Source of the DNA: an uncultured Lysobacterales bacterium
GTDB taxonomy: Bacteria > Pseudomonadota > Gammaproteobacteria > Xanthomonadales > SZUA-36
Assembly (NCBI GenBank): GCA_947258865.1
Contig: CAMYKC010000040.1
Coordinates: 11,459-54,382, forward strand
Direction of reading: 5' to 3'
Length of the DNA stretch: 42,924 nt
The position numbers were made by a program, and so were the translations under genes. The notes beneath the pieces were generated by a model. The model was not told where the DNA came from. It saw only the letters and a program-made list of their open reading frames with translations, and ran no database searches. Below, piece after piece: positions 8,887 to 36,738 of this stretch. How positions within the stretch are numbered: position 1 is the stretch's first letter; each line of letters opens with the position of its first letter.

Positions 8887-9510
8887 TTCATGCCGGGCCC
8901 TGAGCACAGAAGTCACATCAGATAATTCCAGGCCGCCGGCGCGGAGCAGGACCAGCAAGTGGTACAGCAGGTCAGCGGTTTCGTTGACCAGTTCCTCGCG
9001 ATCGCCGGCGGTTGCCGCCAGCGCTGTTTCCACACCTTCCTCGCCCACTTTCTGGGCAATCCGCCTGATGCCGGCCTCGAAAAGCTTCGTCGTGTAACTG
9101 CCTTCCGGCCGATCGGATTCGCGTTGGGCGATCAGGCGTTGCAAGCTGGCCAGGAAGGCGAGACGAGGAATGACCTTCTCCTCTTCATCGAAGCAGGTAT
9201 CGGTGTTGCGATGGCAGGTGGGGCCATGGGGGGTGGCCAGCACCAGCAGGCAGTCACGATCGCAATCCGCATGAACCGCGATCAGTTCGAGCCTGTTTCC
9301 CGAGGTTTCGCCCTTGGTCCACAGTTGTTGACGGCTGCGGCTCCAGAACGTCACGTTGCCGGTCTCGATGCTGTGTTCCAGCGCGTCCGGGTCCATAAAA
9401 GCTTGCATCAGCACCCGGCCATCGAATGCGTCCTGGACAATGGCAGGCAACAGCCCATCCATTTTCTCCCATTCGAGCTCATCGATATCCTGTTTGTTTT
9501 CGATCAACAT
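8875..9510 (-). CDS. hisI: Bifunctional phosphoribosyl-AMP cyclohydrolase / phosphoribosyl-ATP pyrophosphatase HisIE
   Basis: HisIE performs steps two and three of histidine biosynthesis. The N-terminal HisI domain (about residues 10-115) has [26 protein letters not shown] and [10 protein letters not shown] with metal-binding residues. The C-terminal HisE domain (about 120-205) has [20 protein letters not shown] followed by the [17 protein letters not shown] helix. It is the last gene of the his operon, overlaps hisF by 7 bp, and its 3' end overlaps the convergent MBL gene by 12 bp. No separate terminator is visible at this crowded junction. Confidence 0.96.
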
Positions 9511-22602: not shown

Positions 22603-23346
22603 TCAGGATTTACGGGCGACCGTTTTCAGTTCATTCATATCCAGGATGCGAACCTGCTTGCGGTCGACCTTGACCACACCGGCCTTCTGGAATCGGGCCA
22701 ACACGCGGCTCACGGTTTCCGTAGCCAGTCTCAGGTAACTGGCAATATCGCGGCGCGACATCGCCAGGATGAATTCCTTGTCGGAATATCCCCGCCGGGA
22801 GAAACGCTCGGACAGGGAGAGAAGAAACATCGCAATCCGCTCGTCTGCGCTCAAATCGCCCGCAATGGTTTCAAGTTCGCTGATGCGCTGGCTCATCACG
22901 CGGAACAGCTCCGATTGAAGCTCGGGCATATGACGAGCCATGCTGGTGACGGTTTCGAAAGTCAGGCCGCAAACGGCGCTGGTGTCGAGTGCCACGACAT
23001 TGGCTACGTGCTTGCAGGAATGAATTGCATCCAGGCCAATGATCTCACCGGGCAGGTGAAAACCCAGAACCTGCTCCTGCCCTTCATGATCGATAACATA
23101 ACTCTTGAAACAACCGGTTCGCACCGAGGCGACCGAACGGAATTCGTCTCCGGCCCTGAAAAGGTGTTCTCCGGGCTGGATGGGGCGCGAACGGTGGACG
23201 ATCTGCTCGAAACGCTCGGTTTCGTCCGGTGTCAGGCCTCGCGGCAGGCAAAGTTCGCCCAAAGCACAGCGGCTGCAGGCAACTTGCGAGCGGGAGGGTT
23301 CACGACGGTAATCTCGAATATTGGCGACTCTTAGGGAACTTTCCAT
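22603..23346 (-). CDS. fnr: FNR/Anr-type oxygen-responsive regulator
   Basis: The 247-residue product has all elements of an oxygen-sensing FNR: N-terminal Cys24, Cys27 and Cys33 (CSRCALGELC) and the fourth ligand Cys126 (TSAVCGL) for a [4Fe-4S] cluster, a cyclic-nucleotide-like barrel, a long dimer helix, and a winged helix with the ATETVSRVL recognition helix. The E..SR pattern in that helix is the one that reads TTGA half-sites. ATG 23346 was chosen over the upstream open frame because GGAGAG precedes it at proper spacing. It lies downstream of hemN, a classic FNR/Anr target. Confidence 0.94.
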   Translation of the reverse strand: MESSLRVANIRDYRREPSRSQVACSRCALGELCLPRGLTPDETERFEQIVHRSRPIQPGEHLFRAGDEFRSVASVRTGCFKSYVIDHEGQEQVLGFHLPGEIIGLDAIHSCKHVANVVALDTSAVCGLTFETVTSMARHMPELQSELFRVMSQRISELETIAGDLSADERIAMFLLSLSERFSRRGYSDKEFILAMSRRDIASYLRLATETVSRVLARFQKAGVVKVDRKQVRILDMNELKTVARKS

Positions 23347-23377
23347 GACGCACTCTCCAATTAATTCTTTTGAGTGC

Positions 23378-23427
23378 ATTATATTGCGCAGCACGCTCAG
23401 CCACATGCGTATAAATACGTATGTGGC
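23378..23427 (-). promoter_or_regulatory. fnr promoter: consensus -10 with a 28-bp dyad upstream
   Basis: On the minus strand a perfect TATAAT (23383-23378) lies about 32 bp before the fnr start codon. No acceptable -35 hexamer is found 16-18 bp upstream. Instead a near-perfect inverted repeat occupies 23400-23427: two 13-bp arms with one mismatch around a 2-bp centre, arms of the form GCCACAT(G/A)CGTAT. Its centre lies about 42 bp before the predicted start site, the position of class II activators. The motif is not an FNR or CRP consensus, and I do not recognise the binding protein. Confidence 0.5.
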
Positions 23428-23520
23428 ATTGCTTAGGACCCCGGATTCCCTTCCTGAAGAACAGGTCAGACCAGCGGTTCAGCAAGGCACCGCCGCAGTG
23501 TTGTTGAGCGTAAAACCCCC

Positions 23521-24818
23521 TCAGATCACCCTTGAGAATTTCGGCTTGATTTGAGGTTCCTGCAGGTATTCATCGAACACCATGGCGATGGCCCGCAATA
23601 ACAGCCGGCCTTCCGCCGTTACGCTGAAGGCGTCATTGCCCATTTCGACCAGGCCGTCTGTTTCGAGTTGCTGCAGGTTCCCGAGCTCAAGTGCGAAGTG
23701 CTCGTGAAAATCAATGGCGTAGTTGGACTCGAAATGTTCGAAATTGACTTCGCCGTGACACATGATGGATTCGATGACGCTGCGCCGTAAGCGGTCTTCG
23801 GTGGTCAGGCTCACGCCGCGCCAGATGGGCAGCTTCCCTTCGGCAACAACCGATTGCCAGGTCGGGATGTCCTTGATGTTCTGTGCATAGCAGTCACCCA
23901 CCTTGCCAATTGCACTGACACCCAAACCCACGAGATCGCATTCCCGGCGGGTCGAATAACCCTGGAAGTTGCGCTGCAGCCCTCCTTCCCGCTGGGCGAC
24001 GGTAAGTTCATCATCAGGCAGAGCAAAGTGGTCCATGCCAATATAGATGTAACCGGCTTCAGTCAGTTTCGTGATGAGTTATAAACGGCAAGGCGATCGG
24101 GTTTCGCTTCGACCACAGTGTCGATGGTCTTGCCGAAGCTTTCCACTGTTTGCAGCGGCAAGCCGTAAATCAGATCAATGGAAACCGAATTGAATCCGAG
24201 GTTTCTCGAGCCATCTATCATTTCCAGTGTGGCCTCAGGATCCTGAACACGGTTGACGGCCTTCTGAACCGCCGGGTCGATGTCCTGCACACCAAGGCTG
24301 ATCCGGTTAAAGCCCATCGCAGCCAGTTCAGCCAGCCGCTCAATGCCGACCGTACGCGGGTCCACCTCGATTGAAAATTCCCGGCTGTCCCTTTTGCTCA
24401 GAGAGAAATGCCGCCCTAACTGCTTGACCAGGGCTTTGAGTTCCTCATCATTGTGGAAGGTTGGGGTGCCGCCGCCAAAGTGAAGTTGGATCACCTCACG
24501 GTCGTGATCAAACAGTTTTCCCTGCAGCTCTATTTCGCGATCCAGCAGCCCAAGGTAGTGCGTCGCCTGGTGCTCGTGCCGGGTCACTTTTTTCATGCAT
24601 CCACAGTAATAGCAAAGTGACCTGCAAAATGGCAGATGAACATAAAGAGAGAGCGGTTTTGGAATCAATTCGCTGTTGCTGTCCGCCGTATTCCGGCGGT
24701 AGGCCTCCGCGTCGAATCCTTCCATGAATTGCACTGCTGTTGGGTATGACGTGTAGCGTGGTCCCGCTATGTCATACCTTTTTATCAGTTCTGTATTGAA
24801 TTTAACTCGTTGTTCCAT
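23521..24818 (-). pseudogene. hemN: Oxygen-independent coproporphyrinogen III oxidase hemN, internal deletion and frameshift
   Basis: HemN is the radical-SAM enzyme that makes protoporphyrinogen IX without oxygen. The first frame (24818 to about 24075) has RYTSYPTAVQF, the CRSLCYYCGC cluster motif, HFGGGTPTF, and SIDLIYGLPLQT, then after DRLAVYN runs out of register and stops at 24063. The second frame resumes as LITKLTEAGYIYIGMDHFALPDDEL and continues to a normal FSRVI C-terminus. Against E. coli HemN (from memory) about 33 residues, roughly 100 bp, are missing at 24070-24080. The deletion would remove part of the barrel and break the frame, so the gene as given should be inactive. ATG 24818 is preferred over the open frame to 24869. 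Confidence 0.88.
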
Positions 24819-24854
24819 CAATGGGCCCTGGATCATCCTGTTTGCAATGAGAAG

Positions 24855-24894
24855 ACTATACGATGGCAACCAGTTTTCAGTTGACCGGCGTCAA
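24855..24894 (-). promoter_or_regulatory. hemN promoter with FNR/Anr box
   Basis: TTGAC-CGGC-GTCAA (24881-24894) is a perfect inverted repeat matching the FNR/Anr consensus TTGAT-N4-ATCAA except at the inner base of each arm. A TATAGT hexamer (24860-24855, minus strand) follows 20 bp after the box, placing the box centre about 41 bp before the predicted start site. That is the standard class II FNR activator layout. The recognition helix of the FNR encoded nearby fits TTGA half-sites. Confidence 0.65.
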
Positions 24895-36669: not shown

Positions 36670-36738
36670 GAGACCGGTGTTCCCCTTGCACCAGGTCTCA
36701 TGAAAGGGCCGGTTGACCCCTTACCGGCCCTTTCTTTT
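36670..36738 (+). terminator. Hairpin followed by intrinsic terminator downstream of bioC
   Basis: A first hairpin (36670-36699) has GAGACC-GGTG paired with CACC-a-GGTCTC. The second (36702-36734) is a perfect 11-bp stem, GAAAGGGCCGG with CCGGCCCTTTC, followed by TTTTA (36735-36739). The second is a canonical terminator of bioC transcription. The tandem arrangement after an AT-rich stretch resembles the 3' end of a small RNA. Confidence 0.8.

Follow-up and report, generated by a model that had tools for sequence, protein, structure and literature searches.

The fnr locus and the conserved core of its dyad

The window, the whole stretch of 42,924 nucleotides that was analysed, carries an fnr gene on the minus strand, and a 28-bp dyad lies between this gene and hemN upstream of it. 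The features concerned, together with a tRNA gene of the window, are as follows.

22603..23346, minus strand: fnr, assigned by NCBIfam NF008365, Pfam CRP-type domains and the cysteines in the translation
23355..23358, minus strand: probable ribosome-binding site GGAG, judged from the sequence
23378..23383, minus strand: -10 element TATAAT, based on the sequence and its spacing to the box, with a presumed transcription start
23400..23427, minus strand: 28-bp dyad, read directly from the sequence
23406..23421, minus strand: predicted FixJ-type box TACGTATTTATACGCA, based on conservation and sequence comparison
23521..24869, minus strand: hemN, upstream of fnr, in two pieces that match TIGR00538
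41559..41635: tRNA-Arg (ccg)

The Fnr protein scores 238 bits against NF008365, above the cut-off of 228, and its translation contains a CX2CX5C motif (CSRCALGELC) plus a central Cys. It is predicted to be a 4Fe-4S oxygen sensor. It does not belong to FixK, a CRP/FNR protein lacking the Fe-S cysteines, since these cysteines are present in the window Fnr. The ATG at 23346 (stop at 22603) is preferred over the start of a longer ORF from 23406 because of the conserved Fnr start and the GGAG. The hemN gene is broken around 24036-24084, where about 35-40 codons kept in relatives are absent and the frame is lost. It is uninterrupted in relatives, and the break is either an assembly collapse or a real lesion.

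The sequence GCCACATGCGTATAAATACGTATGTGGC forms the dyad at exactly 23400-23427, with two 13-bp arms, a single mismatch and a 2-bp spacer, just as the sequence-only reading had described it. Its centre is 30 bases upstream of a perfect TATAAT (23383-23378, minus strand), and thus at about -42.5 when TATAAT is taken as the -10. A search of 23300-23560 gave no sigma-70 promoter with a TTGACA-like -35. This layout agrees with the class II position proposed earlier and is that predicted for the site of a dimeric activator. The motif was also rightly said to be neither an FNR nor a CRP box: the FNR/Anr box TTGATNNNNATCAA is not matched at the dyad, and its sole match in the window within 1 mismatch is at 9494. 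The window fnr box is an imperfect palindrome of the 16-18 bp class within a promoter, with 6 of its 8 core pairs self-complementary; by the same count, the Sinorhizobium meliloti fixK site has 5 of 8.

Two positions of the window (23400 and 36701/36702) have 13-bp arms with at most 1 mismatch and a loop of 0-10 bp, where 0.39 would be expected from Markov sequence; with a 2-bp loop there is one position, and 0.04 would be expected. The symmetry by itself is therefore just moderately unusual, and it is conservation, rather than symmetry, that makes the dyad a feature. The other strong dyad of the window, the inverted repeat GAAAGGGCCGG...CCGGCCCTTTC at 36701-36735, looks like a terminator stem.

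Homologues of fnr were found in 56 of 61 genomes, and the upstream DNA was compared for the 30 with loci. Among these family promoters, 17 of 30 contain a TACGTA half-site (at most 1 mismatch) in a box whose centre is 30 bases (6 promoters) or 31 bases (11 promoters) from a -10-like hexamer, while 1.75% of Markov-shuffled upstream sequences reach this half-site and spacing. With the promoters aligned at the dyad centre, the information in the 16-bp core averages 1.67 bits per column for 11 close relatives, counting the window itself, and 1.51 for all 17 box-bearing promoters, and a comparison stretch 45-15 bases upstream has 0.29 and 0.21 bits, respectively. Conservation in relatives, which had been put forward as a check on the dyad, is thereby confirmed. 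Most of the information upstream of fnr in relatives is held by the inner 20 bp or so, a conserved core around TACGTATTTATACGCA that reaches a few bases beyond the box on either side. Six promoters form a distant group (G001, G009, G010, G013, G015 and G020), in which the second half of the box is TTCCCGAA-like; one half-site is retained there and most of the symmetry is gone. In three distant fnr promoters (L010, L011 and L012), an FNR-type box (CTGATCTRKATCAA) is located between the FixJ box and the -10, and this placement points to autorepression of fnr.

A second box between a fixJ-like gene and a cbb3 oxidase operon

The distant form of the box was searched for in 39 family genomes. Matches recurred between a FixJ-like gene and a gene for a single-domain receiver, followed by HiPIP and ccoN genes where the locus was long enough. 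The box is directly 3' of fixJ in all 14 loci that a contig end does not truncate. The 15th fixJ locus (G005) is truncated, and a box was located on a separate contig of that genome, ahead of receiver-HiPIP-ccoN; in total, a matching box precedes the receiver-HiPIP-cbb3-oxidase operon in 15 of 15 related loci. The cco box of the window's genome (G000) is TACGTAATTTCCCTGAT, on contig C92 (5923-5939). The gap from the cco box to the -10, measured in 14 promoters, is 30 in 10 loci and 31 in 3, with no -10 at that place in G010. The fnr and cco boxes thus have a common spacing of 30/31 bases to the -10.

The first gene of the operon (L096:5460-5924, on C92 of G000) encodes a single-domain receiver whose phospho-acceptor Asp is replaced (SESSLP), and three cysteines are conserved in most of its close relatives. 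This receiver is a candidate FixT-like feedback protein. A tandem pair of overlapping FixJ-type boxes follows fixJ in G010 (L100:5951-5981). A perfect FixJ-type box is present upstream of an ABC-transporter-like ORF in G018 (L139:1501-1517), where FixJ was not detected.

FixJ orthologues, with at least 48% identity to the reference protein P0001, are present in 15 of the 39 family genomes, including the window's. The gene fixL adjoins fixJ, and the two encode a two-component system with PAS and HisKA/HATPase domains in one protein and a receiver and a LuxR-type HTH in the other; the HisKA domain was seen in the FixL copy of G006, and the G000 copy is partly given as X. The best solved match to the FixJ-like protein is FixJ 5xso (1.5e-49), which we take to be a Bradyrhizobium japonicum-type FixJ, and the recognition-helix region SPRTVEIHRAHVM resembles SPRTIEVYRANVM of 5xso. 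The PAS domain of the G000 FixL belongs to the heme-PAS type: it aligns at 3e-34 to FixL heme domains, its best solved relatives, and retains MPEP..SRHD and IIGIGR. The SRHD and IIGIGR stretches presumably hold the residues corresponding to H200 and R220 of B. japonicum FixL. The NCBIfam models for FixJ (NF006900; 222 and 235 bits of 255) and FixL (NF041777; 268 and 302 bits of 850) are the best families but stay under their cut-offs, and the proteins are therefore designated as FixLJ-like.

Evidence for a FixJ-like regulator and its alternatives

Published FixJ sites include that of fixK, TAAGTAATTTCCCTTA, and the SELEX motifs GTAGTTTCCC and GTAMGTAG (PMC4999443). The cco box of the window's genome shares 14 of 16 positions with this fixK site of S. 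meliloti, and the 15 cco boxes share 11-14 of 16, whereas random 16-mers reach 13/16 at a rate of 5e-6. The 17 fnr boxes show 8-12/16 identity to the same site. For the window fnr box the identity is weak (9/16, a level reached by 1.4% of random 16-mers) and the TTTCCC half is missing; on its own, this box is not recognisable as a FixJ site. The motif GTAGTTTCCC is found exactly in 2 of the 17 fnr boxes (G013 and G009). A weight matrix was built from cco boxes only, with the tested genome left out. With it, the fnr-promoter site is the top-scoring of about 7,450 positions in the G000 locus, and 12 of the 17 box-bearing loci have this site in first place. The fnr site is second or third in four FixJ-bearing genomes and is missed in G002.

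All 14 fixJ-bearing genomes compared have the fnr box, as do 3 of the 16 others, but the Fisher value of 5e-6 overstates the co-occurrence because the pattern follows the tree, on which there are three box changes and just two independent pairs on well-supported branches. The co-occurrence is supporting evidence, short of decisive. The three genomes with a box and no detected fixJ (G015, G014 and G002) are MAGs that are 83, 77 and 65% complete, respectively, and G016 has fixJ and the cco box, with no fnr match found. Within the order, FixJ-like proteins were matched at 1e-42 in 56 of 299 genomes, and 41 of the 56 lie beyond the family. Among these 41, the fixJ loci of 15 were scanned (L108-L122), with a plausible box after fixJ in L122 and a weak one in L108. 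In other families, five genomes that encode a FixJ-like protein (42-47% identity) lack a box within 400 bp of fnr, so that, across the genomes tested, the wiring seems limited to the family. G040, G051 and G069, also outside the family, gave no fnr match at 1e-15.

Based on the cco box, the shared spacing, the match to the fixK site, the co-occurrence and the heme-PAS motif, a FixJ-type site is the best reading of the dyad. With good though indirect support, the dyad is probably the operator of a FixJ-like response regulator predicted to activate fnr in the class II manner. The earlier view that the regulator is an unknown one can be given up: a box of the same form and spacing precedes the cbb3 operon beside the fixLJ-like genes, and matches published FixJ sites there, and the fnr box co-occurs with the fixJ-like gene. 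ErdR/CrbR (acetate) was also considered on account of the TACGTA half-site, and was rejected; the available text of the ErdR paper contains no matching motif, and the gene context points to FixJ.

The site could belong to another LuxR/FixJ-type regulator, a FixJ paralogue that happens to share the TACGTA half-site. Other FixJ-like regulators do exist, such as the second matches in G022, G003 and G026 at 40-42%, and in the window's clade the fnr and cco boxes diverge in their second half. A paralogue is nevertheless unlikely, because the half-site and spacing are equal at the two promoters, which are linked by intermediate boxes (G013, G009 and G010), and the fnr box co-occurs with precisely that FixJ whose gene adjoins the cco box. 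G061, whose best FixJ-like protein reaches only 39%, is without the fnr box.

A dimeric regulator of a wholly unknown kind, reading the entire 28-bp dyad including CCACAT/ATGTGG, would fit the complete outer arms of G000 and the similarly long symmetric extension of G021, the only one among the other 16 box-bearing promoters. The outer arms, however, are not conserved in relatives, where the outermost positions hold about 0.1-0.5 bits, and they are a local extension in the window's genome. At positions 9-14 from the centre, 36 of 66 cells are paired in the close group, some of them within the conserved CAT/ATG extension, and 12 of 36 in the distant group. CCACAT-N14-ATGTGG has a single exact occurrence genome-wide, and its eight 1-mismatch places look like chance. 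Such a regulator is very improbable. The sequence-only reading was right that the dyad is real but laid its emphasis on arms that vary, while the inner core is conserved. The genome-wide search for a second site that it proposed finds the outer arms to be unique, but a second core-type site exists in the same genome. A 2-mismatch search of G000 with the fnr core gave 5 other places, mostly intragenic, against 16 control matches, and no further regulon members are therefore claimed; two 2-mismatch cco-type matches are on contigs C33 and C59 of G000.

An RNA hairpin or terminator ending hemN, instead of a protein site, is the least credible reading: a transcript across the dyad can form an 11-pair stem, but there is no T-run, no intrinsic terminator was found at 23300-23560, the folding z-score is -1.2, the distant group drops most of the symmetry while keeping one half-site, and the spacing to the -10 is fixed.

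The predicted circuit and known oxygen-sensing systems

In Gammaproteobacteria, fnr is generally placed at the head of the oxygen response. By analogy with rhizobial FixLJ, the heme-PAS kinase FixL would autophosphorylate at low oxygen and pass the phosphate to FixJ. Dimers of FixJ~P would bind the TACGTA-N4-TACGCA core at about -42.5, stand in for the absent -35 and turn on fnr from the predicted start. At the equal position beside fixLJ, FixJ would also activate the receiver-HiPIP-cco operon. FNR, an Fe-S oxygen sensor in its own right, would then act at lower oxygen, so that the two oxygen sensors would be in series. The chances are about even that, in a free-living gammaproteobacterial family, FixLJ directly drives an Fe-S FNR without FixK, together with a cbb3 operon headed by the gene of a FixT-like receiver that may provide feedback. 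Should fnr transcription in these lineages be set by a FixL-type heme sensor, their oxygen response would have an extra upstream layer, predictable from a short box. A FixLJ-like regulon is thereby predicted beyond nitrogen fixation and beyond Alphaproteobacteria.

The control of a CRP/FNR-family gene by FixJ is classical knowledge. In the literature searched, a body of partial texts largely outside subscription journals, no description was found of an Fe-S fnr under FixJ control or of FixLJ within this order; relative to that literature, the Fe-S FNR itself as the predicted target, the direct box and the host group of MAGs appear to be new.

The predicted circuit shares with FixLJ-FixK of Sinorhizobium, Bradyrhizobium and Caulobacter the heme-PAS kinase FixL, FixJ, a FixJ box before a CRP/FNR-family gene, and a high-affinity oxidase in the response (PMC4999443, PMC7078487). 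It differs in that the target is an Fe-S FNR with cysteines instead of the cysteine-free FixK, in that a FixJ box is directly ahead of the cco operon, and in that the relatives are MAGs labelled Lysobacterales, Chromatiales, Xanthomonadales, Gammaproteobacteria or Proteobacteria. The FixJ targets listed in the available part of PMC4999443 are only nifA, fixK, fixX and SMc03253 in Rhizobiales, and fixK in Caulobacteriales. The circuit would resemble a stage implied by the alphaproteobacterial history given in that source, at which FixLJ had captured an fnr-type gene and the cluster loss of FixK came later.

FixLJ beyond Alphaproteobacteria is also described in the Burkholderia cepacia complex, where it activates a fixK reporter at low oxygen, but the host is Burkholderia, the target is called fixK, and no box is described in the portion of the report available (PMC5234846). 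Caulobacter FixT is likewise a single-domain receiver with a FixLJ-induced gene; the receiver here differs in being the first gene of the cco operon and in that most close relatives have three conserved cysteines instead of the 4-Cys motif given for FixT in the accessible text (PMC7078487). The hFixL-FxkR-FixK-FnrN pathway of Rhizobium leguminosarum, as far as the available text of PMC7888657 describes it, is similar in that a heme-kinase path increases fnrN at 1% oxygen while FnrN itself works closer to anoxia, so that two sensors operate in series. The path there runs via FxkR and FixK, whereas the FixJ-type box here is on fnr itself. The two systems would offer a natural comparison of two-sensor designs, with a predicted direct link in this family and a route through FixK in R. 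leguminosarum.
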